From the NCBI GenBank assembly GCA_938020525.1, contig CALIHW010000150.1, positions 1-62,566 on the forward strand: a DNA stretch of 62,566 nucleotides, read 5' to 3'. Position 1 is the stretch's first letter, and the number at the start of each line of letters is the position of its first letter. Below the pieces are notes generated by a model. The model was not told the DNA's origin and did not search any database. It saw nothing but the letters and a program-made list of their open reading frames with translations. Position numbers and translations under genes: made by a program. Source of the stretch: an uncultured Granulosicoccaceae bacterium. Its GTDB lineage: Bacteria > Pseudomonadota > Gammaproteobacteria > Granulosicoccales > Granulosicoccaceae. This document shows, piece after piece, positions 23,847 to 54,369 of this stretch.

Positions 23847-24896
23847 ATGCGTCCACGCCACTTAAAAACCGTTCTGGATCAGGAATTGGCAAGCGCCATC
23901 AACGGCCATAACACTCCTGTGATGATCTGGGGACCACCAGGTGTAGGCAAATCTCAAATAGTGTCATTAGTGGCAGAGCATCGATCAGTGCCTGTTATTG
24001 ATTTGCGCTTATCACAAATGGAACCGAGTGACCTGCGCGGCATTCCATTTCGCAGTGACACGTTGGTTGAGTGGGCAGTTCCACGTATGTTGCCAGATGC
24101 AGCTCGACACGGACCCGCAGGAATTTTGTTTCTTGATGAAATTACTTCAGCACTACCCGCAGTATCTGCCGCTGCCTATCAGTTAATTCTTGATCGCTGT
24201 CTCGGTGACTATACGGTTCCAGACGGTTGGGTCATTTTTGCCGCAGGTAACAGACAAGGTGATCGCGGCGTGACATACGCTATGCCGTCACCACTTGCGA
24301 ATCGATTTACTCACTTTAGTTTTGATATCAACCTTGATGACTGGGTTACCTGGGCACATCAGAATGAGATAGATGAACGTGTCATCGCGTTTTTAAGATT
24401 CCGACCAGAGTTGTTGTTTGATTTTGACCCATCGACCGACCCGGTTGCCTTCCCTACTCCGCGCTCCTGGGAGTTTGCCCACCATGCATTACACAAGTTT
24501 GAATCCCAACCGGAAATACTTGCCGGCAGCCTGCAGGCGTGTGTTGGAAAAGCAGCGGGCATTGAACTGAGCGCATTTATAGAAAATCTGCAGCACCTGC
24601 CAGACGTCGGCTCAATCTTGTGCGGTGAAGAGGTGCCTGTTCCGGAATCTATCGATTTGCAGTACGCGCTGGCATCTTCACTTGTCGGGCATGCAGTGCA
24701 GACTGTTGGCACGCCAGAGCAAAATGCAACCCTCGGCAACATACTCGAATACGCAAACAAGTTTCCACAACGCGAGATGGGCGTCATGCTCGTGTCAGAC
24801 ATGCATCGTGCAATCGGTGAACCATTGTTTACCGTGCCACAATTTCAGGACTGGGCAAATCAGGTTGCAGATGTCATGTTATTCGACCCCGAATAA
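23847..24896 (+). CDS. MoxR-type AAA+ ATPase
   Basis: AAA+ ATPase of 349 residues with Walker A GPPGVGKS (29-36), Walker B ILFLDEITSA, sensor 1 AAGNR and arginine-finger region PSPLANRFTH. MoxR proteins act as chaperones that insert cofactors or remodel partners carrying VWA domains, and the next gene encodes such a partner. The start is ATG 23847; a TTG two codons upstream is possible. Its stop codon is the first base triplet of an 18-bp tandem repeat (24894-24960). Confidence 0.9.
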   Translation: MRPRHLKTVLDQELASAINGHNTPVMIWGPPGVGKSQIVSLVAEHRSVPVIDLRLSQMEPSDLRGIPFRSDTLVEWAVPRMLPDAARHGPAGILFLDEITSALPAVSAAAYQLILDRCLGDYTVPDGWVIFAAGNRQGDRGVTYAMPSPLANRFTHFSFDINLDDWVTWAHQNEIDERVIAFLRFRPELLFDFDPSTDPVAFPTPRSWEFAHHALHKFESQPEILAGSLQACVGKAAGIELSAFIENLQHLPDVGSILCGEEVPVPESIDLQYALASSLVGHAVQTVGTPEQNATLGNILEYANKFPQREMGVMLVSDMHRAIGEPLFTVPQFQDWANQVADVMLFDPE

Positions 24897-24960
24897 GTCT
24901 ATGTCCCATCATAAGCCTAAGTCTCGTCATAAGTCTGTGGCACATCATAACTCTATATCT
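24894..24960 (+). repeat. 18-bp tandem repeat starting at the MoxR stop codon
   Basis: Units begin at 24894, 24912, 24930 and (partial) 24948. The first reads TAAGTCTATGTCCCATCA; the next two share TAAG(T/C)CT at the start and TCA at the end. The first three bases of unit 1 are the stop codon of the ATPase gene, and because 18 is a multiple of three, TAA recurs in frame at every unit. It fills the gap before the DUF2201/VWA gene. Confidence 0.8.
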
Positions 24961-25005
24961 TAAAGCCGACTAAGCCGACACTAAACGAATAGTTGCTCAT
25001 GCCTT

Positions 25006-26331
25006 ATGGATAAACTCAGCGGTCCGAACAATATAGAGAATATTCTCACCGCAGCTCGCACGCGGCTAATACTGGACAAACCGTTTCTTGGCGCACTGGT
25101 ACTACGCCTGCCTCTGATTGATGCATCAGCCTGGTGTGAAACCACAGGCACCGACGCGAAAAGTATTTACTACAACCGCGGCTATATCGAAAGTTTAAGT
25201 CTAAGCCAGGTACAGTTCGTACTGGCACACGAAGCATTGCATTGCGGCTTGTCGCACTTTGCCAGACGTGAACACCGTCAACGCAGGCGCTGGGATGTGG
25301 CCTGTGATCACGCGGTGAACCTGTTATTGGTTGATGATGATCTCGAACTGCCAGTCGGTGCATTATTAAACGCCGAGTATAGTGGTATGTCAGCAGAAGA
25401 AATTTACCCCTGCATTGATGAAGACGATGATGAACAACCTATGGATCAGCACCTTTATGATCCAGATGTTACTGACACGGACACACGCTCTGATGATTCC
25501 GATATACAAGCATCGGTAAAGAGTGGTGACTCTGATCACAGCGAGGAACAGAGTAGCGGCAATCAACAAACAGATGAATCATCAGGGGACAACTCAAATA
25601 ACGACGGCAACGACAGCAACGACAGCAACGACAGCAACGACAGAAAAGATAACAAAACCGGCTCAGGCATCAACGCGCCTCCACCGCTAACCAACCGTGA
25701 ACGCGACCAGCTCGACACACAATGGCAGCAGAGACTGGCAGGTGCGGCGCAACAGGCAGCCCAAGCGGGAAAACTAAGCGATTCGATAGCACGTATGCTA
25801 GAACGTCTATTGCAACCTACTCTGCCGTGGCGCGCGTTGATAGCACGCTTTATGAACAGCGCGACACGAATTGACTACAACCTAACCCGCCCGTCGAGAC
25901 GCCGGGAGGGTGAAGCTATTCTGCCAAGCCTGCACACGCGGCAAATAGATGTAGTGGTTGCACTGGATACCAGCGGTTCCGTATCACAGCAGGAGCTTAA
26001 TGAGTTTCTGAACGAGCTAAACGCAATCAAGGGCTCAATGAATGCGCGGGTAACCCTGCTCGCTTGCGATGACAAGCTCAATGATAATAGCCCCTGGTTA
26101 TACGAACCATGGGATCCGATGAACCTGCCAACTCAAATAAGCGGTGGCGGACTGACAGATTTTTGTCCGGTATTTACCTGGCTATCCAGGGCCGGGCACC
26201 AACCGGACCTTGTCATTTACTTCACCGATGCAAAAGGCCGATTCCCGACCGAAAAACCGCACCTGCCTGTGCTTTGGCTGGTGAAAGGTCCCGCTCCTGT
26301 GCCCTGGGGTCAGCGAATCCAACTAAACTGA
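25006..26331 (+). CDS. DUF2201 putative metallopeptidase with VWA-like domain
   Basis: Protein of 441 residues with two conserved parts. The N-terminal domain has a zinc-peptidase motif HEALH (75-79) and WDVACDHAVN (96-105), typical of DUF2201_N. An acidic, Asn/Asp/Ser-rich linker (about 140-225) follows. The C-terminal VWA-like domain has a MIDAS motif DTSGS near residue 322. It is the standard partner of a MoxR ATPase in COG0714/COG3864 pairs; biochemical function is not established. Part of the linker is encoded by 9-bp repeats (25600-25644). Confidence 0.88.
   Translation: MDKLSGPNNIENILTAARTRLILDKPFLGALVLRLPLIDASAWCETTGTDAKSIYYNRGYIESLSLSQVQFVLAHEALHCGLSHFARREHRQRRRWDVACDHAVNLLLVDDDLELPVGALLNAEYSGMSAEEIYPCIDEDDDEQPMDQHLYDPDVTDTDTRSDDSDIQASVKSGDSDHSEEQSSGNQQTDESSGDNSNNDGNDSNDSNDSNDRKDNKTGSGINAPPPLTNRERDQLDTQWQQRLAGAAQQAAQAGKLSDSIARMLERLLQPTLPWRALIARFMNSATRIDYNLTRPSRRREGEAILPSLHTRQIDVVVALDTSGSVSQQELNEFLNELNAIKGSMNARVTLLACDDKLNDNSPWLYEPWDPMNLPTQISGGGLTDFCPVFTWLSRAGHQPDLVIYFTDAKGRFPTEKPHLPVLWLVKGPAPVPWGQRIQLN
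25600..25644 (+). repeat. 9-bp coding tandem repeat
   Basis: Five units of AACGAC(A/G)G(C/A) encode Asn-Asp-Gly, three Asn-Asp-Ser and Asn-Asp-Arg in the linker of the DUF2201/VWA protein. Near-identical units suggest recent slippage expansion; copy number may vary between strains. Confidence 0.85.
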
Positions 26332-26840
26332 AAAAGTAACGACATAAAAGTACATTCATCGGTGATGTAGATGTGGACTTGTATAGTCATCCCTGGCGCA
26401 TCAGGTTCGCTTTAATCCTAAAGAAATATGGAACAAGTTTAATTTTCGTACCATACTTTATAAGTGCCGTTTGACAGATGGCCTGCCTGGCAGGTGATCA
26501 AGGTGGTCGATGTCTGCGATTTTTCACCACGCGGTATACCGAGGCTAATGCTGGATCAGGCCATATTGCCGTCTTGGAAGTATCGACAAACGCTGGATCA
26601 GGTTAGTATATTGGTCATACTGGGAGGCGCGCATATTGCACGTCTCTTCTACCTATACGATGAACACATTTCGTTCACAATCAACACTTTATTGTTACGC
26701 TCAAGACCTCTGTAAGAGGCGCTCACCGCAGTAGGATCTACAGTTTCAGGTTTTGTTGATCAAGTTGCGCGATACGTGGATGCCGGGAACAATTCGGCCT
26801 TGTGCGAACAGCAGTTAACTTTGCCGGAGATTGCACCACA
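26332..26840. other. Intergenic stretch upstream of aprM
   Basis: About 500 bp without a convincing gene. A frame at 26464-26715 (GTG start) has no ribosome site and composition unlike neighbours. A small hairpin CCTGC/GCAGG (26482-26494) follows a TTGACA (26471-26476) that lacks a matching -10. The region must hold the aprMBA promoter; none could be fixed. Confidence 0.4.
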
Positions 26841-27692
26841 ATGTTTATCAACAATCCGTTCGCCGACATCGCAACGGCCATACCGCCATCAATGATGAAG
26901 CTCTATGTCGTCCTGATGGTTCTTTGCGTCATCGGCGGCACACTGCTGGACATGCGCCACAAGCAGAGCGCCAAATACTTCTTTGAGAATTCAAAGAAAG
27001 CGCAAAAAAACGCCAAAGTTAAAGTTGGCGGTGGTAAGAAAGCCAGCCTTGCAGTCAAAACTGTCGCGGGCGAGGTGCTTACTTCATCTGAGTTCTGTAA
27101 CTCGAAACGCCGGATGTCTCACCTAATGACGATGTACGGGTTTATCTTCTTCGTCATTTCAACTGCTGTGCTCATATTTAAGTACACAGGTGACACGAAA
27201 GCACCTGTACTCTGGCCAATCCTGTGGCACCTGGGTGCGCTCAGTCTTTGTGTCGGTGGCTACTGGTTCTGGTTCAAGATCCGTGTAGATGTTGCTGCAG
27301 AAGGTGTTAAGTGGCATCAGTTCAATGGTCGCGGAGATCTTTTCATTCTGGGTCTGCTTTTCACAGCAACTTTTGGTCTGCTGTGGTCATTCTTTTCAGG
27401 TGTTGGCGCCGGTGCGTTTGCATGGATTTTATTCGCACTCTTTATTCTCAGCGCTACCGTACTGTTTGGCTCTGTTTACTGGTCTAAATTTGCTCACATG
27501 TTCTTCAAGCCTGCCGCAGCATTTCAAAAGAAGGTCGCACAGGCGGACGGCTCCAACGAGAACCTGCCAATGGACTACGATCTGTCTGATCCTGAGGTTC
27601 AAGCCAAATTCCCTGATATCCCCGAGTACATGGGCGCGAATCCGCCAAACATGGGTCTGGGCATCAAACGTGAAGCGCCACAGCACTACTAA
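26841..27692 (+). CDS. aprM: AprM, membrane partner of APS reductase
   Basis: Integral membrane protein of 283 residues with about six hydrophobic helices, of the type encoded beside aprBA in sulfur-oxidising bacteria that lack the Qmo complex. It is thought to pass electrons from AprBA to the quinone pool. ATG 26841 is preferred over an in-frame GTG at 26802 because GGAG lies upstream and the residues added would be unlike a membrane N-terminus. A basic cytosolic loop (KKAQKNAKVKVGGGKK) lies after helix 1. It is the first gene of the apr operon. Confidence 0.88.
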   Translation: MFINNPFADIATAIPPSMMKLYVVLMVLCVIGGTLLDMRHKQSAKYFFENSKKAQKNAKVKVGGGKKASLAVKTVAGEVLTSSEFCNSKRRMSHLMTMYGFIFFVISTAVLIFKYTGDTKAPVLWPILWHLGALSLCVGGYWFWFKIRVDVAAEGVKWHQFNGRGDLFILGLLFTATFGLLWSFFSGVGAGAFAWILFALFILSATVLFGSVYWSKFAHMFFKPAAAFQKKVAQADGSNENLPMDYDLSDPEVQAKFPDIPEYMGANPPNMGLGIKREAPQHY

Positions 27693-27730
27693 ATCATATT
27701 CTTACTTATCGGACGTCTGGAGAATCTAGG

Positions 27731-28213
27731 ATGCCTACTTTTGTTTACATGACTCGTTGTGACGGATGCGGCCACTGCGTCGACATCTGTCCTTCGGACA
27801 TCATGCACATCGACACCGTTACCCGCCGCGCGTACAACATTGAGCCGAATATGTGCTGGGAGTGCTACTCCTGCGTAAAGGCGTGCCCTCATCAGGCCAT
27901 TGATGTTCGTGGTTACGCAGACTTCGCACCGCTTGGTCATTCTGTACGCGTAAAGCGTGATGAAGAAAAAGGCGTGATCGCGTGGCGTATCAAATTTCGC
28001 AATGGCGAGAAAGATATGGATCTACTTGCTCCTATCACTACCAAGCCATGGGGCAGCGGCACACCCGATCTGCGTGAAGTAGAAGCGCCGACACAAGAGC
28101 AGAAAGACAGCGAATTACTGTTCAACGAACCTAAGTACATTCGCTTTGACGAAGGCGAGCTGCACACGCTTGAGTCCAACGGACTACAGATGAAGCAGGG
28201 AGTCGACTACTAA
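27731..28213 (+). CDS. aprB: AprB, iron-sulfur subunit of APS reductase
   Basis: Electron-transfer subunit of dissimilatory adenylylsulfate reductase, 160 residues. Two [4Fe-4S] motifs are complete: C10-x2-C13-x2-C16-x3-C20 and C42-x2-C45-x2-C48-x3-C52. The C-terminal tail, which wraps around AprA in known structures, is present. Its stop overlaps the aprA start (TAATG). Confidence 0.96.
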   Translation: MPTFVYMTRCDGCGHCVDICPSDIMHIDTVTRRAYNIEPNMCWECYSCVKACPHQAIDVRGYADFAPLGHSVRVKRDEEKGVIAWRIKFRNGEKDMDLLAPITTKPWGSGTPDLREVEAPTQEQKDSELLFNEPKYIRFDEGELHTLESNGLQMKQGVDY

Positions 28214-30099
28214 TGGCTAAGTACGAAACAATTGTCGAAGATGGCATTGATGTACTGGTCTGTGGTGCGGGCCTCGGTGGTACCGGTGCTGCGTTTGAAG
28301 CCCGCTACTGGGGTCAGGACAAGAAGATCGTTATCGCTGAAAAGGCGAACATAGATCGATCCGGCGCTGTTGCTCAGGGACTGTATGCAATCAACTGCTA
28401 TATGGGCACCCGCTTCGGAGAGAACAATCCCGAAGATCATGTTCGATACGCCAGAATCGATTTAATGGGCATGGTTCGAGAAGACCTGTTATTCGATATG
28501 GCGCGTCACGTTGATTCTACCGTTCATCAGTTTGAAGAATGGGGACTGCCATTAATGAAAGACCCGAAGACTGGTAACTACCAGCGCGAAGGTCGTTGGC
28601 AGATTATGATTCACGGTGAGTCATACAAGCCTATCGTCGCAGAAGCCGCCAAGAAGTCTGCAGATAAAGTTTTTAACCGTATCTGCATCACTCACTTGTT
28701 GATGGATGATGCGCAGGACAATCGAGTCGCAGGCGCTGTTGGTTTCAACGTACGCACCGGCAACTATCATGTCTTCAAATCAAAGACAGTGATTGTCGGC
28801 GCCGGGGGTGCTTCCAATATCTTCAAACCACGTTCAGTCGGTGAAGGTGCGGGTCGTGTCTGGTATGCACCGTGGTCTTCTGGTTCTGCATATGGTTTGT
28901 TGATTGGCGCCGGTGCCAAGATGACGCAAATGGAAAATCGCATCGTACTGGCACGTTTTAAAGATGGTTATGGCCCTGTTGGCGCCTACTTCCTGCACCT
29001 TAAAACATACACTCAAAATGGTTTAGGTGAAGAGTACGAATCAAAGTGGTGGCCATCACTGCAAGAGATTGTCGGTAAAGAATATCTTGACCCTGAAGTC
29101 TCTCATGCAACTCACCGCCCTATTCCGACTTGTCTGCGTAACCACGCTTTCATTCAGGAAGTAAACGCCGGTCGCGGCCCGATTCACATGGTGACTATGG
29201 AAGCATTCCAGGATCCGCATCTGGAAGAAATTGGCTGGCACAACTTTTTGGGTATGACAGTAGGCCAGGCAGTACTTTGGGCCGCCACTGATGTTGACCC
29301 GAAATATGAAAACCCTGAACTGACTACCTCAGAACCATACGTAATGGGATCACACGCCACGGGCTGTGGTGCCTGGTGTTCAGGCCCTAAAGATCTTTCT
29401 CCGCCAGAGTACTACTGGGGCTACAACCGCATGACGACGGTTGCAGGTCTCTTCGGTGCCGGTGATGCAGTCGGTGGTACACCACACGCATTCTCTTCAG
29501 GCTCCTTTACTGAAGGACGTCTGGCTGCAAAGGCGGCTTGCAAATACATTGATGATGGCAAAGCTGAAGGCATCACTATCTCTGACGAACAGATTGAGAA
29601 GCGTCGTGAAGAAGTCTACAAACCGATGGAGACTTACAAAATCTATCGCAACGAGATCACCGCTGGTTCAGTTAACCCGAACTACATCAATCCGCGCCAG
29701 GCACTTGATCGATTGCAGAAGTTGATGGACGAGTACGCCGGTGGTGTAACTGTAAGCTACATGACTAACGAGAAGCTGCTTAACATAGGCTTGAAGAAAC
29801 TCAAGCTGTTGGAAGAAGATCTTGAGAAGGTAGCGGCAGAGAACATTCACGAGTTACTTCGCGCATGGGAAATCAAGCATCGTCACCTGACCTCAGAATC
29901 AGTGGTACAGCACACCTTGTTCCGTAAAGAAACCCGCTGGCCGGGTTACTACTACCGTGGTGATCACTTGAAGCTTGACGATGACAACTGGCATGTACTG
30001 ACAGTCTCAAGACGCGATCCTGAAACTGGTGAATACACCATGGAAAAAGCGCCTTGCTATCACCTGTCTGAAGTAGACGGTAAAGTCAGCGCTGCGTAA
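28213..30099 (+). CDS. aprA: AprA, flavin subunit of APS reductase
   Basis: Catalytic FAD subunit of 628 residues. In sulfur oxidisers the enzyme runs from AMP plus sulfite to APS; ATP sulfurylase (not in this window) would then release sulfate and ATP. The dinucleotide-binding motif CGAGLGG is at 17-23. Segments such as DRSGAVAQGLYAINCYMGTR and SHATGCGAWCSGP match known AprA proteins. With aprM upstream and no dsr or qmo genes nearby, the oxidative direction is favoured, but this rests on context. Confidence 0.96.
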   Translation: MAKYETIVEDGIDVLVCGAGLGGTGAAFEARYWGQDKKIVIAEKANIDRSGAVAQGLYAINCYMGTRFGENNPEDHVRYARIDLMGMVREDLLFDMARHVDSTVHQFEEWGLPLMKDPKTGNYQREGRWQIMIHGESYKPIVAEAAKKSADKVFNRICITHLLMDDAQDNRVAGAVGFNVRTGNYHVFKSKTVIVGAGGASNIFKPRSVGEGAGRVWYAPWSSGSAYGLLIGAGAKMTQMENRIVLARFKDGYGPVGAYFLHLKTYTQNGLGEEYESKWWPSLQEIVGKEYLDPEVSHATHRPIPTCLRNHAFIQEVNAGRGPIHMVTMEAFQDPHLEEIGWHNFLGMTVGQAVLWAATDVDPKYENPELTTSEPYVMGSHATGCGAWCSGPKDLSPPEYYWGYNRMTTVAGLFGAGDAVGGTPHAFSSGSFTEGRLAAKAACKYIDDGKAEGITISDEQIEKRREEVYKPMETYKIYRNEITAGSVNPNYINPRQALDRLQKLMDEYAGGVTVSYMTNEKLLNIGLKKLKLLEEDLEKVAAENIHELLRAWEIKHRHLTSESVVQHTLFRKETRWPGYYYRGDHLKLDDDNWHVLTVSRRDPETGEYTMEKAPCYHLSEVDGKVSAA

Positions 30100-30125
30100 C
30101 AGCGGCACTGATCCATTTGAAAGAA

Positions 30126-30150
30126 ACACTGCCGCGTTCTGCGGCAGTGT
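30126..30150 (+). terminator. Hairpin after aprA
   Basis: ACACTGCCGC (30126-30135) pairs perfectly with GCGGCAGTGT (30141-30150) around GTTCT, 26 bp past the aprA stop. Only a short T-rich stretch follows, so read-through into the downstream genes is plausible. Confidence 0.7.
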
Positions 30151-30268
30151 TGTATCGATCCTTCCCCTCGTTGTCTCGCTCAGATAACTCTGACTCGGCG
30201 ACACCAGGCCTATCATGTAATATGGCTTGTAGCACTGGAGCATGTCTCCCGAAAACCTGAGAGTCTTC

Positions 30269-30622
30269 ATGAATATTATCGAACACACCGATGATGAACT
30301 GGCCGCAATTGCGCACCCAATGTGGGATGATCTCATCCGTTATTCTAATGAAGGAGAATACGGAAAATTCATCAGAAAATTCTCTTATGAGATGTTGTTT
30401 GGCCTAAATGAAGTCGAGATCGGAAAGCAATTCGCCAAAAGTGAACTGACAAGAAGCCTTGATCCAAACTACGATTTTATAGGCTACATCCGCCGCAACG
30501 AACATGTTACCTGTCTCTATCGCATGCGTAGCAGCAAGCGTGAAGGCGAATGGCTCGGCCGTATGGTGCTCGGGTATAACAAGGAAGGTGAAGTGAATAT
30601 CTATGGCGCTTCCATTTTCTAG
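30269..30622 (+). CDS. Hypothetical protein, apr-linked
   Basis: Soluble protein of 117 residues (ATG 30269 with GAGAG upstream; an ATG at 30242 has its GGAG too close). It starts MNIIEHTDDELAAIAHPMWD and is mixed alpha/beta in look, with many aromatic and charged residues and no Cys-based metal motif. No family is recognised with confidence. It lies 170 bp after aprA on the same strand and is followed by four further genes on that strand, so a role in sulfur oxidation is possible but unproven. Confidence 0.7.
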   Translation: MNIIEHTDDELAAIAHPMWDDLIRYSNEGEYGKFIRKFSYEMLFGLNEVEIGKQFAKSELTRSLDPNYDFIGYIRRNEHVTCLYRMRSSKREGEWLGRMVLGYNKEGEVNIYGASIF

Positions 30623-30686
30623 CAGTCCTTTTTAACAGCCTCTTTTTAACAGGCAATTACCGCTAAAGATTTAAAGGCATAAAACT

Positions 30687-31229: not shown

Positions 31230-31243
31230 CTCAGCATCTCACA

Positions 31244-32353: not shown

Positions 32354-32363
32354 TGCAAAGGCA

Positions 32364-34162: not shown

Positions 34163-34247
34163 TATATGTGCCACACTTACACAATGGTTTTTTCAGTAAG
34201 AACTCAAAGAGCGGTACTATACAACCAGAGCAATAACGACACTTTTG

Positions 34248-34703
34248 ATGAGCAGCTACGACAAAGCGATTGCACACGCCGAAGCACAATGTGCTGACAG
34301 TGGGACCAAACTCACCCTGAAGAGAAAGGTGGTGCTGCGCGGCCTGTTGCAAGCAAAGCAAGCGATGACTGCGTACGAGCTGGCAGACTTCTGCAAAGAA
34401 GAACTCGGTGAGGCGATGCCAGCCATGTCGGTTTACAGAATTCTGGAGTTCCTCGAGAGCGAACAACTGGTACACAAACTTAAACTCGCGAACCGCTTCG
34501 TGGCCTGTATTCATATCACCTGCGATCATCAACATGCCGTGCCACAGTTTCTAATCTGCGAGCAATGCCACAAGGTATCAGAGGTTAGCATCAAGGAACC
34601 AACGCTACGCGCACTTCGCAATAGCGTTGAAGAAGCAGGTTTTAAGCTCGCTAGTCCACAACTGGAAATGAATTGCGTGTGCAAAGAGTGCTCTACTGCC
34701 TGA
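34248..34703 (+). CDS. Fur-family metalloregulator, Zur-like
   Basis: Fur-superfamily repressor of 151 residues: N-terminal winged helix (MPAMSVYRILEFLES in the recognition helix) and C-terminal dimer domain with HQH, ICEQC and CVCKEC. The two CxxC pairs (about C104/C107 and C145/C148) form the structural zinc site seen in Zur and other Fur-family proteins. It is divergent from the MerC-like gene with a shared operator. Zinc is the likely metal, by family and context. Confidence 0.85.
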   Translation: MSSYDKAIAHAEAQCADSGTKLTLKRKVVLRGLLQAKQAMTAYELADFCKEELGEAMPAMSVYRILEFLESEQLVHKLKLANRFVACIHITCDHQHAVPQFLICEQCHKVSEVSIKEPTLRALRNSVEEAGFKLASPQLEMNCVCKECSTA

Positions 34704-34738
34704 ACTTCTACATCTGAACCCTTCAGCTAAAATTTACA

Positions 34739-35754: not shown

Positions 35755-35763
35755 ATTCGATTA

Positions 35764-35810
35764 AGATCTTACAACCATTTTAGATCTTACAAGTGTTCTA
35801 GATCCTACAA
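35764..35810 (-). repeat. 18-bp tandem repeat spanning the Kelch stop codon
   Basis: AGATCTTACAA recurs at 35764, 35782 and (as AGATCCTACAA) 35800, an exact 18-bp period on the plus strand. Read on the coding (minus) strand each unit gives Cys-Lys/Arg-Ile, followed by a stop in the first two. The true stop TAG is at 35798-35800, inside the array, and TAA follows in frame one unit later. Confidence 0.8.
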
Positions 35811-37681
35811 CTGCGGCCTTCATACCCAGATGGTTGTTGCCAGCCCCAACCATCGCCATCACTATCTATACAAGCAATACCATCATAGACAGACCCCTGT
35901 GGTAGTACATTAGTAGTCGGGGTACTTACGGGCATCTTACAACTTCTGCCCGGTACACCTTCTGCTTCTTGCCAACCCCAACCATCACCATCTGTGTCAA
36001 TGCAGGGAATACTATCGTAGGCTCCATCGTCTGAATTTGCCCCATTATAGTGAACCGGACCAGTGCCACCAGGCTGATAAGCAGGGTCATTTGTGAGTAT
36101 TATTTTGTCTACCGCGAGTCCATCTTCCCGCATCCACAGATTAACACTGTGGATACCCGCAGAAGGTATAGCCAATGTCGCTCTGCTTCCATCGCGAGTA
36201 GCATTTGACCAATTCCATGAAGCCGGAAATCTGTGTATTTTGTCTGCAGTAGAAGACAAAGAACCATTGAGGCCAGCGTGCACACTGTCACTCTTACCTT
36301 CACCCGAGACAGTGTCACCCCAACCGCGAATCCAAACATACCAGATTCCGGGGTTCTCAAAGTAGGCATAATATCCAACAGACGGGCTAGATGTTGTTCC
36401 GTTGAGATTATCGCCAGAGTCAGGCGTTGATATTATTGAAGCATTATTACTTGATCCACTCAGATTGTTAGTAATCCAAGAGTGAGTATTGGTATTGTGT
36501 ATTGTGTCAAAATATTCAGCTTCCAGAGATATAACATGCCTTTGCGACGGCAACGGTGTTACGGGTGCTTCCACCACCACTACTGGCTCGTCCATCACTA
36601 CTACAGGTGGTTCAATGACAACCTCGGGCTCCTCTATCACCACATCAGGCTCTTCGATGACTACATCGGGCTCGTTGTTACCACCAAGGACGAGTGGCTG
36701 CATCGGTGTGGTTAACGTCAGCTTTGTAGGGAAACGAAAATTTGGTGAACCGCCCGAAGACACAACCAGCTGGTTGTCTATTACTCTCGCCACCGGAGCC
36801 ACCAGTAAACTCGGCAATTGCAAAACGGTATCCCACTTGTTTTTCCTGGGGTCGAAGCGAAAGATTTTATTTCCATTTACCTCTCCACCAACAACATAGA
36901 TCGCGTTCTTATAAACAAATGTAGATGCTTCTGTGTGAGACTGGGCTGTCGGAATACGAGCTTTCGCGGTCCACTTGTTGTTAGCCGGGTTAAAGGCATG
37001 AACCAGATTGACATCCGCCGCCCTTTTGCCGGGGCAGTTATCATGTCCGTACTGGCCGCCGATAGCGTAGATAATTCCATTGTGGACTGCCGTTGAAAAG
37101 TGGTTTCTGGCGTTAGGCATACCAGCCACATTGGTGATGTTTTTCCAACCTGCAGATCTTTGATTCAAATCGAAGACAAAGTGATTGGCAACATCGCATC
37201 TGGCGTTGGCGTCTGTTCCACCAAACCAGTGAATTTTATTATTGACCAGAGCCGCCCCACCCGCAGCCCCCGGTACAGGGAGTTTTGGTCCGCGTGTCCA
37301 CTTTTTTGAATTGAGATTAAATATCCAGACATCAGAAGACACTCTACCGGGATGATTGCCCACTCTGCCACCAATAAACCATGCTTCATTGCCAGTACGA
37401 ACCAGTCCGTTGTGAGTGACCGCATTACCTTGAGATACGGAAGTGCTACCAACCTTTGACCATTTTTTAGAACCTGCATCAAACACCTCTACCGACGGTT
37501 CTATCTTGATGCCCTGCTTGAAGCCGTTAAAGACGAATATGTCGTCGTTGTATTGCACAGCACTCGCCTCGAAACGAACACTGTTCATGCTCGGCAGACT
37601 CTTCCATGTCTGTGAAAATGCACTGATCGGAGCAGAAAGGAGAAATGCTGATGCTAATAGCAGCTTGGGAAATCTGGTCAT
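35798..37681 (-). CDS. Secreted Kelch-repeat protein with C-terminal DGDGWGW modules
   Basis: Exported protein of 627 residues with a signal peptide ending near AFSQ (about residue 24). A beta-propeller of Kelch repeats (about 25-325) follows, with recurring VYGG/FGG and W motifs. Then comes an acidic repeat linker of (E)EPDVVI units (about 335-385), a carbohydrate-binding-like beta domain starting SLEAEYFD (about 395-545), and two 30-residue Cys-bounded modules with the motif CIDxDGDGWGWQ and SC at the end. It probably binds cell-wall or algal glycan outside the cell. Enzyme activity cannot be assigned. The stop codon lies in an 18-bp tandem repeat. Confidence 0.8.
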   Translation of the reverse strand: MTRFPKLLLASAFLLSAPISAFSQTWKSLPSMNSVRFEASAVQYNDDIFVFNGFKQGIKIEPSVEVFDAGSKKWSKVGSTSVSQGNAVTHNGLVRTGNEAWFIGGRVGNHPGRVSSDVWIFNLNSKKWTRGPKLPVPGAAGGAALVNNKIHWFGGTDANARCDVANHFVFDLNQRSAGWKNITNVAGMPNARNHFSTAVHNGIIYAIGGQYGHDNCPGKRAADVNLVHAFNPANNKWTAKARIPTAQSHTEASTFVYKNAIYVVGGEVNGNKIFRFDPRKNKWDTVLQLPSLLVAPVARVIDNQLVVSSGGSPNFRFPTKLTLTTPMQPLVLGGNNEPDVVIEEPDVVIEEPEVVIEPPVVVMDEPVVVVEAPVTPLPSQRHVISLEAEYFDTIHNTNTHSWITNNLSGSSNNASIISTPDSGDNLNGTTSSPSVGYYAYFENPGIWYVWIRGWGDTVSGEGKSDSVHAGLNGSLSSTADKIHRFPASWNWSNATRDGSRATLAIPSAGIHSVNLWMREDGLAVDKIILTNDPAYQPGGTGPVHYNGANSDDGAYDSIPCIDTDGDGWGWQEAEGVPGRSCKMPVSTPTTNVLPQGSVYDGIACIDSDGDGWGWQQPSGYEGRSCRI

Positions 37682-47263: not shown

Positions 47264-47375
47264 TCTGGATACGGCATTTTCATGAAATAATGCGGTACCC
47301 AATTACTAAAAACGCTGTTTTGTAAGCTGGGTCGACCAGAGACATCGACCCTTCACCAAACCACAGGAATTCCGA

Positions 47376-47756
47376 ATGCCAACCTGGTCCGAGTATAAAA
47401 GTGCAGCACAGGAGCGCGGGTCACTGGCCTGCGAGATGTACGCCGTTGTCACCTCTCCGGTTAAACCCGAAAACCTGCAAGCAAACCTGCCGGCGCATCT
47501 CGAGTATCAGAGGCACATGGAGCAGCAAGGAAAGCTGGTCATGGCAGGCCCGCTTTCGGATCTCTCTGGCGATAACATGGAAGGCGTCGGCATGATCATC
47601 TACCGCACCGAATCACTCGAAGCAGCACGAGCGCTCGCAGATGCAGACCCGATGCACAAATCCGGCACACGCGAATACACCATTCGACGCTGGCTGGTGA
47701 ATGAAGGTAGTTTTCAGCTGGATATAAAGCTCTCGGCCCAATCCATCAGTTTTTAA
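47376..47756 (+). CDS. YciI-like protein
   Basis: Small protein of 126 residues with a ferredoxin-like fold as in YciI and muconolactone-isomerase relatives: HLEYQRHMEQQGKLVMAGPL, then AARALADADPMHKSG, which carries the conserved Asp and His. Such proteins are often found beside ring-cleavage genes, sometimes as lactone isomerases or dehalogenase-like enzymes. It is divergent from the nitroreductase gene and shares its palindrome. Confidence 0.75.
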   Translation: MPTWSEYKSAAQERGSLACEMYAVVTSPVKPENLQANLPAHLEYQRHMEQQGKLVMAGPLSDLSGDNMEGVGMIIYRTESLEAARALADADPMHKSGTREYTIRRWLVNEGSFQLDIKLSAQSISF

Positions 47757-47996
47757 TGACTGTCAGTTTGGGAGGCCGTCAAGCATATAAGGCTGTTCGA
47801 TTTAAGGATTTCATGTAAAGACCTAATTTATAAGGATAACCCCGATATCGACGCTTTCAGAACAATAAGTTGGATCTAATTCAGACAGTTAGTTAACATA
47901 TGAAGTATAGTTTAGCCCTGCAGACCACACATTTGCGCACCCGGTTCACCAATCGTGCAGAGCCGATGCGCTACTGTAAAAATGACATAACATGGA

Positions 47997-48010
47997 TAAA
48001 AGTACTTTTA
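47997..48010. promoter_or_regulatory. 14-bp palindrome upstream of TAXI gene
   Basis: TAAAAGTACTTTTA is a perfect palindrome 42 bp before the TAXI start codon, in a 295-bp gap with no gene. It could be an operator; no regulator gene is adjacent except the AraC protein at 53339. Confidence 0.35.
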
Positions 48011-48051
48011 CTTAATCATGTGTACAAAACCCATTCGTACCGGAGGAATTG

Positions 48052-49113
48052 ATGAAGAACTTTCGCACCCTTAGCCGATCACTAGTCACCCTAGGTGTTG
48101 CAGCTGTGTTGTCATACACAACTGCACACGCGGTTGAAAACCTGACTGCAGAAACCGCATCACCAGGTGGGTCCATACATCTTTCCATGGCCCATCTCGC
48201 TGAAGTTGCAGCGCAAGCCGATGTAGCCAACATCCAGGTAGCTGACGGCCAAACGCTAACCAACTCAATACAAAACGTTGCTGAAGGTAAAACTGATATA
48301 GCGGGCACCCCTTACATCCTGCCTTTTCTACTCTCTAAAGGACGCGGTCCATACTCAAAACTGGGAGAAGAAAAAGGTGCTGAGCTGGCTGCCAATTTAC
48401 GTGCACTGTATCCGGTAACACTGGGCATCTTTGCATTGTATGCATACGACTCAAAAGGCTTGAATGGCTGGGATGATCTCGAAGGTAAGAATATCTATAA
48501 CGGTCCGCCACGTGGCGCTGCTTTAACCAACGCAAGATCCATCATTCAACTGGCTGCCGGCCTTAAGGAAGGCGAAGGCTATAAAGGTGTACAGGTTAAC
48601 TGGGGACAAGCTGTGAAAACAATCACGGATGGTTCATCAGATGCTGTTGTGCTACCGATATTGTTTCCAGACAGCCGAATCACTCAGGCAGTTGCTTCAG
48701 GCAACATGACAGTCTGGTCTGTGCCTAAAGACAAATGGGACTCTGAACCATTTCAGAAGTACCTGCGTGCGCCGGGAAGCGCGCCATTCACACTACCCGC
48801 ATCAGACGCTAATTTGGGTGAGGGCGTAACACTGGTCACAGAGGACGACACCTTCCGTGGCTTAGCCACTATTGGTGGAGACATCGTTAACAAAGACATG
48901 CCATTTGAATTGGCTAAAGCGCTGACCAAAGCACACATCGACACACTTGATCAACTGAAAGCAAAAGCACCATTCGCACGCTATGCCGGTTACGGTGTTG
49001 TTGACTCGGTAAAGTCAGGCATGTGCGGCCCTAACCCGCTTAAATACCACGAGGGCGCAGTAGCCGCGTGGGAAGAAGCTGGTTACACGATCGACGACTG
49101 TGCCAAGCCCTAA
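48052..49113 (+). CDS. TAXI-type TRAP solute receptor
   Basis: Periplasmic binding protein of 353 residues from the TAXI branch of TRAP systems. The signal peptide ends TTAHA (residue 27). ATG 48052 has GGAGG six bases upstream; a TTG one codon earlier is not needed. Landmarks include LNGWDDLEGKNIYNGPPRGA and VNWGQAVKTITDGSSDAVV. It is followed by a hairpin and the fused permease. The ligand is unknown; the coupled sulfatase suggests a sulfate ester. Confidence 0.87.
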   Translation: MKNFRTLSRSLVTLGVAAVLSYTTAHAVENLTAETASPGGSIHLSMAHLAEVAAQADVANIQVADGQTLTNSIQNVAEGKTDIAGTPYILPFLLSKGRGPYSKLGEEKGAELAANLRALYPVTLGIFALYAYDSKGLNGWDDLEGKNIYNGPPRGAALTNARSIIQLAAGLKEGEGYKGVQVNWGQAVKTITDGSSDAVVLPILFPDSRITQAVASGNMTVWSVPKDKWDSEPFQKYLRAPGSAPFTLPASDANLGEGVTLVTEDDTFRGLATIGGDIVNKDMPFELAKALTKAHIDTLDQLKAKAPFARYAGYGVVDSVKSGMCGPNPLKYHEGAVAAWEEAGYTIDDCAKP

Positions 49114-49155
49114 TACAGGCAATATATAGCCTTACAGACCAACGGCACGAACAAG

Positions 49156-49181
49156 CGGTCGTCCCCTAACAAGGACGGCCG
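49156..49181 (+). terminator. Hairpin after TAXI gene
   Basis: CGGTCGTCC (49156-49164) pairs with GGACGGCCG (49173-49181), with one G-T pair, and is followed by TTTTCGTTT. It is a good rho-independent structure, yet the permease gene begins 55 bp later, so it acts as an attenuator. Confidence 0.75.
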
Positions 49182-49235
49182 TTTTCGTTTCCACAATACT
49201 ATTACGTACTTCTAACGGACTCTGGCCACTCGATT

Positions 49236-51623
49236 ATGGCGAATGAATCTAACAGCCCTGTGTTAGGTGCAACACCAAAAAACGCTGTCGGCAAAGACGC
49301 CGGACAACGACTAGTCTACTGGCTGGCATTATTGTTTGTTATTGTCGGGTTGCTAAATGCAATGCCGGGCATACCGGGGATCGATGAGGCTTTTACAAAT
49401 TTCCTCGGTTTTGAAAATTTTGTTATACGCAAATACCCCTACGAGTATTTCTATCCAATAGCCTTTGCGCTAATGATGATTATCGTCGCGTTGAAGCACT
49501 CACTGTGGCGCGGCTTCACCGATAGATCAACAATAATCCGACGCATGGGCCTCGGTCTCGACATCGCCCTGGTAGTAGCCGCCGTCGCGATATCTTTAAC
49601 CTACATGATTGAAATTGAAGCCGTCTGCCTGGTCGATCAGCTTACCGGCAAACGTGCGGACCTGATTGCAAAGAGTCTGGCAGAGGAAATTCAGTTTGCC
49701 GAAGATTTCGGTTTACCTGTTCCCGACTCTGTCGATGATCCGCAATGTATTGACACTACCGGTGCATGGCTTGCCGCGATTATGTTTTTAAGCGTTGTGG
49801 TATTTCTGGCTTACAACGTTAAAGTCTGGGGATTGCCACTGGTACTGGTGGCAATTGCGGTAGCAGCTTATACAGTGGCTACAGTAATGGTCTGGTACTT
49901 CCACGGCCCTGACGATATTAATAAGTACCTCATGACCAAGCTCGGTGGTGAACCAAGATTGCTATCAGATGGCAGGCCACGCTTACACGATGCACTGGTA
50001 AACAACTCTTCCGGCCTGCTCGGCAGGTTTATGGATATCATTCTTAATACAGTCTTCCCGTATATTGTTTTGGGTGGACTATTCGGTGCATCTGCCGGTG
50101 GCCGTTCATTAATCAAACTTGCATTCCTGTGGACCAGAAAGCTTCGCGGTGGCCCGGCTCACGCAGCCATTGTTTCTTCTGCTTTGTTTGGAACCATTTC
50201 CGGCGGTCCGGTAGTTAATGTATTGTCTACCGGTGTGTTAACCATACCAATGATGATAAAACGCGGCTTCTCCAAGGTGTTCGCAGGAGGAATGGAAGCG
50301 GCAGCGTCATCCGGCGGTTCGATCATGCCCCCGGTAATGGGAGTCGCTGCATTTGTACTTGCTGCATTGACAGCAGTTCCTTATCGCGAGGTTATTATCG
50401 CCGCCGCCATACCAGCAGTCGCCTATTTCTTTTGTATGTTTTTATCCGCCATTTTTCAATCCCGTAAGCAAGGCATTGAAGCGATCGGTGAAGTCACTGA
50501 AGACATGATCTTATCGAGAGCAGACAAGCTCAATCTGGTGATGATCTTCGGCCCGATACTCCTGATTCTATTTTTATTACTGACACCCAAAGAAGCCATA
50601 GGCTGCGGTTTTTTTGCCTCGCTTTTTGGCGTGCAGTCAACCGTTACCAATGGAAGTTGCCTGGCAACGGATCTACCGTGGTTTTTCGAGCTCATACAAA
50701 ACTCCGCTGGTGATGCTGGTAGTGCCGGGTGGTGGGCCGTGATTCTCTTATGTTTTTTGTTGTTTCTTGATTGCGATATGCGGCGTCAGCCAAAGAGATT
50801 ACTCGATGCATTGTCCGGTGCCGGCATACTAATCTCAACGCTATATCTTATGTTTCTAGCAGTGTCTATTATCGACTTTTGTCTTAACTTTACCGGTCTG
50901 TCAGATTTTATTGCACTCGATGTTCTGGGTTGGTTGCGCTCCCTGGACCTTGCAAACAGCGGTTCCGGTTTGTTCCAGTTTATAGCGCTGTTTACGACTA
51001 TGGCGTTAGCCGTTCTACTAGGCATGGGTATGCCAGCAGTGCCTGCGTATATTAATGTCGCGCTACTAATGGGTCCGGTACTGGCGGGTCTTGGGTTGGC
51101 CACATTTACCGCACACATGTTTATATTCTATTTTGCCGTCGCCTCCGCGATTACACCGCCGGTGGCAATAGCAGCATTTACAGCCGCCACAATCACCAAA
51201 GCTGAACCCATGTCTACCGCATTCTCAGCAGTACGATCAGGCATCGTGATGTTTGTCATTCCATTTGTATTCGCAATCTATCCCGAATTACTGCTTATTG
51301 AAGCTGCGGTGCTCGATCCCACCTCACTCGCCTCTGCAGCTCAGTATCTGCCGGGCTATGACGGGCAACTGCATCTTGGATTACTACTATGGTTATTGGT
51401 AAGACTTGCAGTGGCGTTGTATTTACTTGCAAGTGCGCTTGCAGCCTTCGACCGCAAATCCCTGTCTGCTTTGGAAATAGCCCTTCGGCTAGGTATTGCA
51501 CTATTGATAATGTTCAAACCAATGGAAATTCATGCACCAGCACTGATAGCAGCAGTAATATTGCTCACCATTCACACCATGCGTAACAAGAATGTCAGCA
51601 CTGCAACTGAAGATGCTGTGTAG
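49236..51623 (+). CDS. TRAP permease, 4TM/12TM fusion
   Basis: Membrane protein of 795 residues joining the DctQ-like and DctM-like parts, as is usual in TAXI-TRAP systems. The DctM part begins near residue 260 with NTVFPYIVLGGLFGASAGG, then GTISGGPVVNVLSTG and SGGSIMPPVMGVAAFVLA. The N-terminal part has about five helices. Its TAG stop shares its last base with the GTG start of the sulfatase, so the two are translationally coupled. Confidence 0.92.
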   Translation: MANESNSPVLGATPKNAVGKDAGQRLVYWLALLFVIVGLLNAMPGIPGIDEAFTNFLGFENFVIRKYPYEYFYPIAFALMMIIVALKHSLWRGFTDRSTIIRRMGLGLDIALVVAAVAISLTYMIEIEAVCLVDQLTGKRADLIAKSLAEEIQFAEDFGLPVPDSVDDPQCIDTTGAWLAAIMFLSVVVFLAYNVKVWGLPLVLVAIAVAAYTVATVMVWYFHGPDDINKYLMTKLGGEPRLLSDGRPRLHDALVNNSSGLLGRFMDIILNTVFPYIVLGGLFGASAGGRSLIKLAFLWTRKLRGGPAHAAIVSSALFGTISGGPVVNVLSTGVLTIPMMIKRGFSKVFAGGMEAAASSGGSIMPPVMGVAAFVLAALTAVPYREVIIAAAIPAVAYFFCMFLSAIFQSRKQGIEAIGEVTEDMILSRADKLNLVMIFGPILLILFLLLTPKEAIGCGFFASLFGVQSTVTNGSCLATDLPWFFELIQNSAGDAGSAGWWAVILLCFLLFLDCDMRRQPKRLLDALSGAGILISTLYLMFLAVSIIDFCLNFTGLSDFIALDVLGWLRSLDLANSGSGLFQFIALFTTMALAVLLGMGMPAVPAYINVALLMGPVLAGLGLATFTAHMFIFYFAVASAITPPVAIAAFTAATITKAEPMSTAFSAVRSGIVMFVIPFVFAIYPELLLIEAAVLDPTSLASAAQYLPGYDGQLHLGLLLWLLVRLAVALYLLASALAAFDRKSLSALEIALRLGIALLIMFKPMEIHAPALIAAVILLTIHTMRNKNVSTATEDAV

Positions 51624-53251
51624 TGAATATACTCTGGATTATGGCGGATCAATTGCGTTACGACTATCTCAGTTGTTACGGTGCAAAACACATAGATACA
51701 CCAAACATCGATCGGCTCGCTTCACTGGGCGTGCAGTTTAACCGCGCCTATGTTCAATCCCCTATTTGTGGACCGAGCAGAATGAGCTTCTATACCGGAC
51801 GCTACGTACGTAGTCATGGTTCAACCTGGAACGGATTTCCGCTAAGAGTCGGCGAACCGACTTTAGGTGATCACCTGCGAGAAATAGACGTCAAGTGCTC
51901 GCTTGTCGGTAAAACACACATGACACCCGACAAGGAAGGCATGAAACGCTTAGGCATCGAACCAGAGAGCACCATCGGTGCACTGGTGAGTGAATGCGGG
52001 TTTGATGTTTTTGTTCGAGATGATGGCACCAACCCTACCAACTACCCAAACCGCCACGGTGAAGACTACGATCAATACCTGCGCGAACACGGCATGGATG
52101 GAGACAACCCCTGGGAGGAATGGGCCAACACCGCGATAGGCCCTGATGGAGACTTACGATCTGGCTGGCTGTTAGAGAATGCACCCTACGCTGCACGTGT
52201 ACCAAAGGAGCATTCAGAAACCACATGGCTCACAACACGCGGCATGCAATACATTGAAGCTCAAGACGAAGACAAACCCTGGCTATGTCACTTGAGCTAT
52301 ATCAAACCGCACTGGCCTTATCTGGTACCTGCACCTTATAACGACATGTACAGTGCTGCTGACCTGCCCCCGGTTAATCGTACAGATATCGAGCTTCAAA
52401 CAGATCATCCACTGCTGCAGGCGTGGATGAACATGCGGGTTAGCAAGACATTTTCACGTGATGAAGTACGAGATATAGTTGCACCGGTTTACATGGGCCT
52501 AATCAAGGAACTTGATGATCAGATAGGCAGGCTGCTAATTTTTTTAGAAGACAGCGGCAGGATGCAAGACACCATGATTGTTTTTTGCTCTGACCATGGT
52601 GATAACATGGGTGATCATTGGATGGGTGAAAAAGATCTCTTTTACGATTCATCTGCACGCGTACCAATGATTATCTACGACCCGAGACCAATGGCAGATG
52701 CAACACGCGGAACCACCACTGAAGAATTGATCGAGGGCATAGATCTCGCGCCGACGTTTATGGAGTTCTTTGGTGGTGATACCAAGCCACACATAATGGA
52801 GGGACAATCGCTGCAGCCTCTGCTGCACAATCTGAAAAAAGATTTCCGCCGCTACTGTGTTTCTGAATACGACTACTCCACACGTGACGCAAGAATTGAA
52901 GTAGGCGTGGATCAGGCCGACGCACGGCTTGTCATGGTATTCGATGGCAGGTACAAATACATACATGTAGAAACCATGCGACCAATGCTGTTTGATCTAC
53001 AAACAGACCCTCACGAAGTACATGATCTGGCATTGGATCCTGCGTACGCGCAGGAACTTGATCGCATGAGTCAACACTATTTCGAATGGACGCGCAAGCA
53101 CCATAATCGCATCACCAAAAGTGCCGATGACGTTGAGCGCATGACCAAAGACAAAGAACCACCAGGAATACTAATTGGTTTTTATGACGAGCAAGAATTG
53201 ATTAAGGAGAATAGAACACTACCAGATCATTTGCAGGCAGATCATTTGTAG
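51623..53251 (+). CDS. Sulfatase family hydrolase (cytosolic)
   Basis: Alkaline-phosphatase-superfamily hydrolase of 542 residues. The formylglycine site is C49-G-P-S-R53; metal ligands include D9 and, late in the chain, CSDHGDNMGDH. Enzymes of this group hydrolyse sulfate esters or phosphonate monoesters; the exact substrate cannot be told. No signal peptide is present, and its GTG start overlaps the TRAP permease stop, so the sulfated compound is probably imported intact and cut inside. The maturase for formylglycine is not in the window. The stop lies in a 15-bp tandem repeat. Confidence 0.9.
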   Translation: MNILWIMADQLRYDYLSCYGAKHIDTPNIDRLASLGVQFNRAYVQSPICGPSRMSFYTGRYVRSHGSTWNGFPLRVGEPTLGDHLREIDVKCSLVGKTHMTPDKEGMKRLGIEPESTIGALVSECGFDVFVRDDGTNPTNYPNRHGEDYDQYLREHGMDGDNPWEEWANTAIGPDGDLRSGWLLENAPYAARVPKEHSETTWLTTRGMQYIEAQDEDKPWLCHLSYIKPHWPYLVPAPYNDMYSAADLPPVNRTDIELQTDHPLLQAWMNMRVSKTFSRDEVRDIVAPVYMGLIKELDDQIGRLLIFLEDSGRMQDTMIVFCSDHGDNMGDHWMGEKDLFYDSSARVPMIIYDPRPMADATRGTTTEELIEGIDLAPTFMEFFGGDTKPHIMEGQSLQPLLHNLKKDFRRYCVSEYDYSTRDARIEVGVDQADARLVMVFDGRYKYIHVETMRPMLFDLQTDPHEVHDLALDPAYAQELDRMSQHYFEWTRKHHNRITKSADDVERMTKDKEPPGILIGFYDEQELIKENRTLPDHLQADHL

Positions 53252-53267
53252 CCGTATCATTTATAGA
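53223..53267 (+). repeat. 15-bp tandem repeat spanning the sulfatase stop codon
   Basis: Three units at 53223, 53238 and 53253: CAGATCATTTGCAGG, CAGATCATTTGTAGC and CGTATCATTTATAGA. In frame they encode DHLQ-A, DHL-stop, YHL-stop. The gene's TAG (53249-53251) is in unit 2 and another TAG follows five codons later in unit 3. Confidence 0.8.
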
Positions 53268-53338
53268 ATGTACCGCAGCTTTATAGACTAGATGTGCACC
53301 GTTAGTGGCCGCTAATGGGCTGTGACACTCAAGGTACA

Positions 53339-54184
53339 CTAATCTACCAGTGACGCTACCTGTCGATACGATGTCGGCGAAATGCCGACATTTGCCCTGA
53401 AGAATCTACTGAAACTCGGCTGCGACGCAAACCCCAGATCCAGTGCAATCGATGTCACGGAATGATCCGTATTGGTGATTTTGTCCAGAGCACGCTCAAT
53501 TAGTAACGCGTTCATATATACTTTGGGTGTTACGCCTGTATTACTGCGAAATAATTTAAAAAAATGTGGGCGCGACAGCCCGGCCTCACGCGCTATATTA
53601 GTTAAAACAAAGTCATCTGCGCTGCACTCATGTACACGCTCCTGCATCATCGTAATTGCAGTGTTTATACGTCGGTCACTGAATATCATGCGTGGTCCTT
53701 CGCTGCGTGCTATATCCGTCGGCGCAAGTGTCCGGCTTTGCTCGTGACAGGCACTGATCAGTTCAAACACCAGCATATCGAACTGACCCGAACGCTCCCC
53801 CTGAATAAGCAGCCTTACGATCCTGTCTATCGACTTTTTGATCTTATAGTTCAGAGGTAGAGAATTACTTCCAAATTCAAGTGTGCGAGCAGATTCGGGG
53901 CTAATGGCGTTGAACCATTCGGGCTTAATGTAAAGAACCAGACTAATCATATGCTGCCCGGGATCAGCGCTCAGGGAACCATGCGGCTGGAGTGGATTTA
54001 TAACAATGGCATTTTCATCATCTGCCCGCAGACGTCGCCCGGAAACCATCAGTCTGTGCGTCGATCCACCGATATGAAAAATAAGATGAACCTCTCTGTG
54101 GGCATGTACCGCTACTGCACGATCCTTCTCGTACAAACATACACGACCAAAACCACCATGCAGGGCAGCCAGGACCCGACTCAT
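53339..54184 (-). CDS. AraC-family regulator
   Basis: Regulator of 281 residues with an N-terminal cupin ligand domain (HAHREVHLIFHIGGSTHRL near 27-45) and a C-terminal double HTH (about 185-280; NIAREAGLSRPHFFKLF and ALDLGFASQPSFSRFFR). It lies upstream of nothing on its own strand but next to pobA, and AraC-type activators (PobR/PobC) commonly control pobA. Its target is inferred from this placement. Confidence 0.88.
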   Translation of the reverse strand: MSRVLAALHGGFGRVCLYEKDRAVAVHAHREVHLIFHIGGSTHRLMVSGRRLRADDENAIVINPLQPHGSLSADPGQHMISLVLYIKPEWFNAISPESARTLEFGSNSLPLNYKIKKSIDRIVRLLIQGERSGQFDMLVFELISACHEQSRTLAPTDIARSEGPRMIFSDRRINTAITMMQERVHECSADDFVLTNIAREAGLSRPHFFKLFRSNTGVTPKVYMNALLIERALDKITNTDHSVTSIALDLGFASQPSFSRFFRANVGISPTSYRQVASLVD

Positions 54185-54260
54185 TGTAGATTTCTCTCAT
54201 TCATGCCAGGTATAACAATTTCGAAGTGAAAATATTCCATCCATTCTAATTAATTTTACA

Positions 54261-54272
54261 TTAGTATACTAA
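54261..54272. promoter_or_regulatory. Perfect 12-bp palindrome before AraC gene
   Basis: TTAGTATACTAA sits 76 bp upstream of the AraC start, between it and pobA. The half TATACTAACA is also found in the operator-like site before the TRAP operon at 18461. It may be an operator for the AraC gene. Confidence 0.35.
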
Positions 54273-54326
54273 CAAATTGTCAACAAGATGCATGCGACTG
54301 GCAGCGAATATTGCAGGCTTTGTAAT

Positions 54327-54369
54327 TGCCTTCCAGTACCAGTACGGCCTTTCAGTAAAGCCTTCAGTA
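54327..54369 (-). repeat. 12-bp tandem repeat spanning the pobA stop codon
   Basis: On the coding strand two adjacent 12-bp units, TACTGAAGGCTT (54358-54369) and TACTGAAAGGCC (54346-54357), are followed by TACTGG and TACTGGAAGGCA (54327-54338). The pobA stop TGA is in the first unit and recurs in frame in the second, each time after a Tyr codon. Confidence 0.7.

Follow-up and report, generated by a model that had tools for sequence, protein, structure and literature searches.

Degenerate tandem arrays with units near 15 bp are dense in a Granulosicoccaceae genome, crowd just behind genes and sometimes move stop codons

Why should several unrelated genes in one stretch of bacterial DNA end inside short tandem repeats that carry their stop codons along? 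The question is raised by contig CALIHW010000150.1 (C150; 62,566 nucleotides, analysed over its full length and called the window here) of an uncultured Granulosicoccaceae bacterium, represented by a metagenome-assembled genome (MAG) of 4.53 Mb in 224 contigs (G000 below). In the original prediction the stop codons at four gene ends of the window were said to lie in tandem arrays with a unit that is a multiple of three, a weaker fifth case being added at the Fur-family gene, and this was explained either by slippage that is tolerated at gene ends or by a system making backup stops or 3′ structures. We find that the array phenomenon is real, genome-wide within our sample and denser in G000 than in the relatives examined. 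The arrays are probably local degenerate minisatellites, born singly from unrelated sequence with units of about 15 bp, unusually frequent in this Granulosicoccaceae lineage, tolerated at gene ends and sometimes moving stops.

The five gene ends were examined with Tandem Repeats Finder (score 30), an ungapped array detector and 500 dinucleotide-preserving shuffles per 140-bp neighbourhood (Table 1). A stop codon inside a tandem array was upheld at three of them, the ends of the MoxR-like, Kelch and sulfatase genes, where the score of each array was reached in 0 of 500 local shuffles. Behind the MoxR-like gene, which is called no more than MoxR-like since PF07726 was absent among its Pfam matches, TAA recurs in frame at +18, +36 and +54 from the gene's stop. 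The Kelch array has TAA in frame at +18 and TTA at +36, and the sulfatase array reads CAG in copy 1 (−15), TAG in copy 2 (0, the current stop) and TAG in copy 3 (+15). At pobA a TGA recurs at +12, yet the best local score was reached by 47/500 shuffles, and the repeat escaped both Tandem Repeats Finder (score 30) and the ungapped detector. The TCTAC repeat claimed for the Fur-family gene had its score reached by 290/500 shuffles and was likewise missed by Tandem Repeats Finder (score 30); these two cases are consequently not retained. Three stop arrays among the 53 called genes of the window are ordinary for this genome (22 among the 1067 genes of the sample, window included; P(≥3) = 0.096).

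The census sample consisted of the window and 80 further stretches of G000, together 1,298,383 bp (29% of the genome) with 1067 called genes and 210,188 bp of noncoding DNA; stretches L001-L006 and six named loci were left out. The detector collected ungapped tandem arrays whose unit measured 6-80 bp and whose score was at least 13; it is blind to arrays containing indels. Genes were called by our own hexamer-score caller; those cut by stretch ends escape it, and some arrays counted as intergenic are therefore coding. Of the arrays in the sample, 69 were coding and 62 intergenic; a further 22 overlapped a stop codon, and 3 were classed as start-only, a class for arrays that touch a gene without touching its stop. 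The noncoding density (intergenic, stop and start-only arrays) is thus 0.41 per kb (87 in 210 kb) in G000, compared with 0.027 per kb in E. coli K-12 (1 in 37 kb of noncoding DNA, 250 kb sampled). The same-genus relatives G003 and G005, sampled over 447 kb and 80 kb only, reach 0.23 and 0.32 per kb, respectively. Four other genomes of the genus have 0.05 per kb (1 in 19 kb of noncoding DNA; five stretches, 94 kb), three other genera of the family 0.17 per kb (8 in 48 kb of noncoding DNA; 340 kb sampled) and two class-level genomes 0.05 per kb (165 kb sampled). When the noncoding DNA of 12 genome sets (for G000 the first 0.99 Mb; E. coli excluded) was shuffled once per set in dinucleotide blocks, no array resulted. 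If the count is limited to arrays that have about four copies or more and a unit of at least 10 bp, coding ones included, G000 has 28 per Mb (36 in 1.30 Mb), G003 and G005 have 11-13, the family set 9, the other same-genus set 0 and E. coli 4 (1 array).

The units of these arrays are mutually unrelated. Among 70 arrays only 3 cross-array matches were found, and the commonest shared 5-mer occurs in 7 of the 70 (p = 0.0002, uncorrected over all 5-mers); a dispersed element family or a common motif was rejected on these grounds. Consecutive copies in stop arrays are mostly 75-95% alike rather than identical. This divergence also bears on the suspicion that the arrays are artefacts of assembly, which the 224 contigs of the MAG might arouse, tandem repeats being prone to misassembly. 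Such an origin is scarcely credible, since the copies differ from each other and since G003 and G005 bear similar arrays, one of them, at recA, in the same place.

Arrays that are noncoding or overlap stops have a unit mode of 15 bp, and 70/87 have units of 11-19 bp. The mode is not a product of the detection floor, a source that was considered and rejected, for arrays of at least 2.8 copies, among which shorter units are detectable, also peak at 15 bp (15/55). In coding arrays the unit is divisible by three in 66 of 69 cases, with 13, 29 and 13 arrays at 12, 15 and 18 bp. The prediction that the unit is a multiple of three fared less uniformly elsewhere: it holds weakly at stops, with 13/22 arrays (p = 0.012), or 11/17 when the first copy holds the stop, and it fails as a genome-wide rule, the other 9 of the 22 stop arrays having units of 13, 14, 16, 17 or 34 bp. 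Intergenic arrays are divisible by three in 33/62 cases unfiltered. Because some of these arrays lie in genes that were missed or cut by stretch ends, a coding filter was applied to the intergenic and start-side arrays, removing 12/65 (cutoff 12) or 20/65 (cutoff 6); the remainder had 25/53 divisible by three (p = 0.025) or, under the stricter filter, 19/45 (p = 0.135). The plain readings of the residual excess would be coding DNA that escaped detection and an intrinsic preference for units of 15 and 18 bp.

Arrays occur most often within ~100 bp 3′ of stops and seldom at starts. Overlap with a stop was seen for 22 arrays of G000, and overlap with a start only for 3 (p = 0.00016). Coverage after stops is 2.7% at 0 to +15 and has its maximum, 4.3%, at +30 to +60, compared with 0.8-2.5% in the first 100 bp upstream of starts. 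Gaps between convergent genes hold 0.77 arrays per kb, tandem gaps 0.47 and divergent gaps 0.29 in G000, and 0.41, 0.42 and 0.06 in G003 and G005 together. Within genes, array coverage climbs toward the C-terminus, the last three bins of 30 bp having 0.62%, 1.29% and 1.64%. A location bias of this kind is what one would expect if duplications survive where harm is least, and the tolerance part of the predicted slippage at gene ends agrees with it, slippage itself being the part we infer. The rate at which arrays start is flat around the stop. Between −15 and +60, five adjoining 15-bp bins have 11.2, 9.2, 12.6, 12.6 and 9.3 starts for every 1000 stops; the next two bins, which reach +90, have 6.8 and 18.4, and the occupied bins farther out have 2.2-9.5. 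Birth of arrays specifically at stops was therefore rejected, and a stop-specific system falls by the refutation rule that came with the original prediction, array starts having no peak at the stop codon.

The same flat profile argues against backup stops, that is, in-frame stops multiplied by selection at gene ends as a guard against read-through. Such a system would accommodate the divisibility by three among stop arrays, those whose first copy holds the stop included, and the sulfatase gene that now ends at a downstream copy of its stop, but it should also enrich stops in frame behind genes. In the 60 bp after genes of G000, stop triplets are equally frequent in frames 0, 1 and 2 (0.0536, 0.0537 and 0.0535 per triplet), and in G003 they are not commoner in frame (0.0498, 0.0574 and 0.0514). 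Nor are stop copies better kept in frame: across 26 stop arrays (G000, G003 and G005 combined), copies in later units are still stops in 18/38 cases in frame and 10/17 out of frame. Two of these arrays (L053 and L100 of G005) begin inside the stop codon, and without their six cells the in-frame figure becomes 18/32. The part of a eubacterial survey that is cited here reports that compelling evidence of selection for additional stops was not found (Ho and Hurst 2019, PMC6764699), with which the lack of any sign of selected backup stops in G000 agrees. We accordingly hold backup stops to be a very improbable explanation. In E. coli K-12 (stretches L179 and L186-L189), in-frame stops after genes are scarcer than those of the other frames (0.040 vs 0.059 and 0.048), unlike in G000. 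Among 821 called genes of G000, 293 end in TAG, 291 in TAA and 237 in TGA, making TAG as frequent as TAA; in bacteria TAG is usually the rarest stop.

Repeats that build 3′ structures or transcription terminators would also be found just after genes, as these arrays are, and at one locus (L037, discussed below) the unit resembles by eye the left arm of a hairpin. An inverted-repeat partner within 70 bp was nevertheless found for 9/75 arrays and for 453/3961 control segments, and arrays occur as well in coding sequence (69) and between divergent genes (11/66 gap arrays). A role in 3′ structures or as terminators is thus very unlikely. The alternative put forward in the original prediction, backup stops or 3′ structures, finds no backing in an excess of in-frame stops, an in-frame advantage in retention, an excess of inverted repeats or a peak at the stop.

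Comparison with orthologues reveals what the arrays do to gene ends. Two arrays of the window are absent from relatives; orthologues of the MoxR-like gene in G003, G005 and G014 were searched for an array 3′ of the gene and it was not found. The gene ends of two relatives matched to the Kelch gene were not alignable with that of G000. Two stops in G000 are displaced. The sulfatase orthologues of G003 (88% identical) and G005 (84%) end in ...NHL-stop and ...EHL-stop, and the G000 gene ends in ...DHL-CAG-GCA-GAT-CAT-TTG-TAG, its stop lying 15 bp, or one unit, beyond the position of the relatives' stop. That position is now a sense CAG in G000; therefore the TAG of copy 2 is used and the protein is five residues longer. 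Copy 1 would formerly have held a stop. The second case is the L037 gene, whose product has a weak match, below cut-off, to apolipoprotein N-acyltransferase. Four fetched relatives with a full-length match all stop at a TGA in the same place. In G000 the gene runs 12 codons past it and ends in the third copy of a 16-bp array, a unit that is not a multiple of three. A terminator-like hairpin lies downstream of this array (L037:1972-2030), and by eye its left arm resembles the 16-bp unit; the array may consist of copies of a terminator arm.

Among 81 orthologue pairs (84 minus 3 with long overhangs) the C-terminus is at least 3 codons longer in G000 in 6, of which 3 have an array that the relative lacks (12, 15 and 18 bp); G000 is shorter in two pairs, neither with an array. 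At L042:4670-5548 of G000 an in-frame 18-bp array encodes an HRED-like C-terminal repeat tail reaching 14 residues beyond the G003 orthologue. The gene at L149 has a stop array with a 16-bp unit, and no array was found in the six relatives compared, whose gene ends fall no more than about ten codons from that of G000 but resist close alignment with it. At recA (TIGR02012) G000 and G003 share the stop position, and directly behind it both have an array whose 15-bp unit is recognisably the same, with 9.9 copies in G000 and 4-5 by eye, or 2.6 by detector, in G003.

Table 1. Arrays and genes considered in the window, and the recA array outside it. TRF, Tandem Repeats Finder; detector, ungapped array detector.
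Feature	Position	Strand	Basis or remark
18-bp degenerate tandem array, MoxR-like gene end	24893..24954	+	begins at stop TAA 24894-24896; shuffles, TRF, detector
MoxR-like AAA ATPase gene	23841-24896	+	AAA domain by Pfam
18-bp array over Kelch gene stop	35761..35813	-	stop TAG 35798-35800; shuffles, TRF, detector
Kelch-domain gene	35798-37681	-	Kelch by Pfam
15-bp array over sulfatase gene end	53223..53266	+	stop TAG 53249-53251; shuffles, TRF, detector
Sulfatase gene	51623-53251	+	Sulfatase by Pfam
Weak 12-bp TACTGA repetition, pobA end	54327..54369	-	stop TGA 54364-54366; indistinguishable from chance
pobA gene	54364-55545	-	TIGR02360 match above cut-off
Claimed TCTAC repeat, Fur-family gene end	34692..34712	+	chance
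Fur-family gene	34245-34703	+	FUR by Pfam
9-bp array within DUF2201/VWA-like gene, coding counterpart	25600..25649	+	TRF, detector
21/42-bp array within Kelch gene, coding counterpart	36560..36673	-	TRF, detector
15-bp array 3′ of recA, ~10 copies	L047:5574-5721 (G000 C165)		shorter in L165 (G003 C7)

How the arrays arise can be proposed from these patterns. Slipped-strand misalignment during replication or repair would duplicate a tract of about 15 nt, and the duplicated tract would be re-amplified and then eroded by point mutation. Selection would purge arrays from promoters and gene starts, and inside genes only in-frame arrays would be kept. Some arrays would include a stop because arrays are tolerated just after stop codons. 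Where units bear stops, a lost first stop would be caught within one unit or a few, and the protein would gain a short C-terminal tail. What we infer is the mechanism of slippage, the neutrality of the arrays and the sequence in which events took place at each stop. MutS is present in G000; loops of ~15 nt are too large for mismatch repair, and an intact MutS is therefore no obstacle to slippage of this kind. Fill-in during non-homologous end-joining is unlikely because a Ku gene was not found in G000 or in 13 searched relatives of the same genus (genomes 77-98% complete).

One may instead suppose a dedicated or unusual mutational activity in the lineage that duplicates tracts of ~15 nt everywhere, to more than 10 times the density in E. 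coli, with a polymerase or nuclease footprint, for example, setting the unit length; stops would then shift unit by unit and proteins would gain repeat tails. The mode at 15 in noncoding arrays and, filtered by frame, in coding arrays speaks for such an activity, as do the unrelated unit sequences and a density in G000 above that of the sampled relatives. Unit length nevertheless varies (11-19), the copies diverge like those of ordinary minisatellites and no candidate gene emerged; Ku was not found, and MutS is present. We regard this activity as unlikely, yet as deserving some weight.

Several points weigh against the explanation by local minisatellites that survive where they are tolerated. 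The 15-bp preference is unexplained by ordinary slippage, and loss of MutS, which was considered as a cause, was rejected since the gene is present. The restriction to this lineage is blurred by the class-level set, in which arrays of ~4 or more copies number 18 per Mb (3 in 165 kb), compared with 28 per Mb in G000, and the comparison of densities with relatives is rough because their samples are small. When G000, G003 and G005 are pooled with stop arrays included, 49/93 units are divisible by three under the looser filter (p = 0.00009), an excess that fades in G000 when coding DNA is removed more strictly. The difference in copy number rests on one locus, recA, in two species and is not one within a species. 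The three arrays counted among the six longer G000 proteins come from a tally that left out arrays in orthologue pairs of equal length. Finally, a functional role of some arrays is possible.

The arrays have the traits of minisatellites, or variable number tandem repeats, in that the units stand head to tail, measure roughly 10-60 bp and do not form a dispersed family, and in that copy number differs between relatives, here at recA in two species. Surveyed bacterial satellites are, in the portion of the survey considered, likewise short tandem arrays that include 10-30-bp units, with coding units divisible by three (PMC6749651). For arrays of at least four repeats of 10-200 nt, the same portion puts the group medians at 0-3 satellites per Mb, and it describes short-repeat satellites as often microsatellite-derived (PMC6749651). 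G000 differs in having ~28 arrays per Mb at ~4 or more copies, a figure only roughly comparable as the detectors differ, in its units peaking near 15 bp and in the crowding of arrays at gene 3′ ends. The displaced stops recall the de novo C-termini formed by stop loss that are treated in the relevant part of a study of yeast and fly, noncoding 3′ sequence being turned into a new protein tail in both cases (PMC4494051); in G000 the organism is a bacterium, and the tail consists of tandem units and ends at the stop of a later copy. With fail-safe additional stops, as presented in the part of PMC6764699 cited above, the arrays share in-frame stops downstream of the main stop, but G000 lacks an in-frame excess and its extra stops look like by-products of duplication. 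Among the titles and abstract openings of the matches listed from the open-licence PMC literature, ~15-bp arrays at 3′ ends in Granulosicoccaceae were undescribed.

As a stop-codon system the arrays are ordinary, the stops being passengers. What G000 contains is an unusually dense minisatellite population that survives best just behind genes and has small but documented effects on protein ends. The array 3′ of recA is a ready locus for studies of copy number. Should the preference for 15 nt prove to be a genuine mutational signature, the lineage would offer a natural setting for the study of how bacterial minisatellites are born, and the movement of stops and the growth of C-termini by whole repeat units could be watched here.

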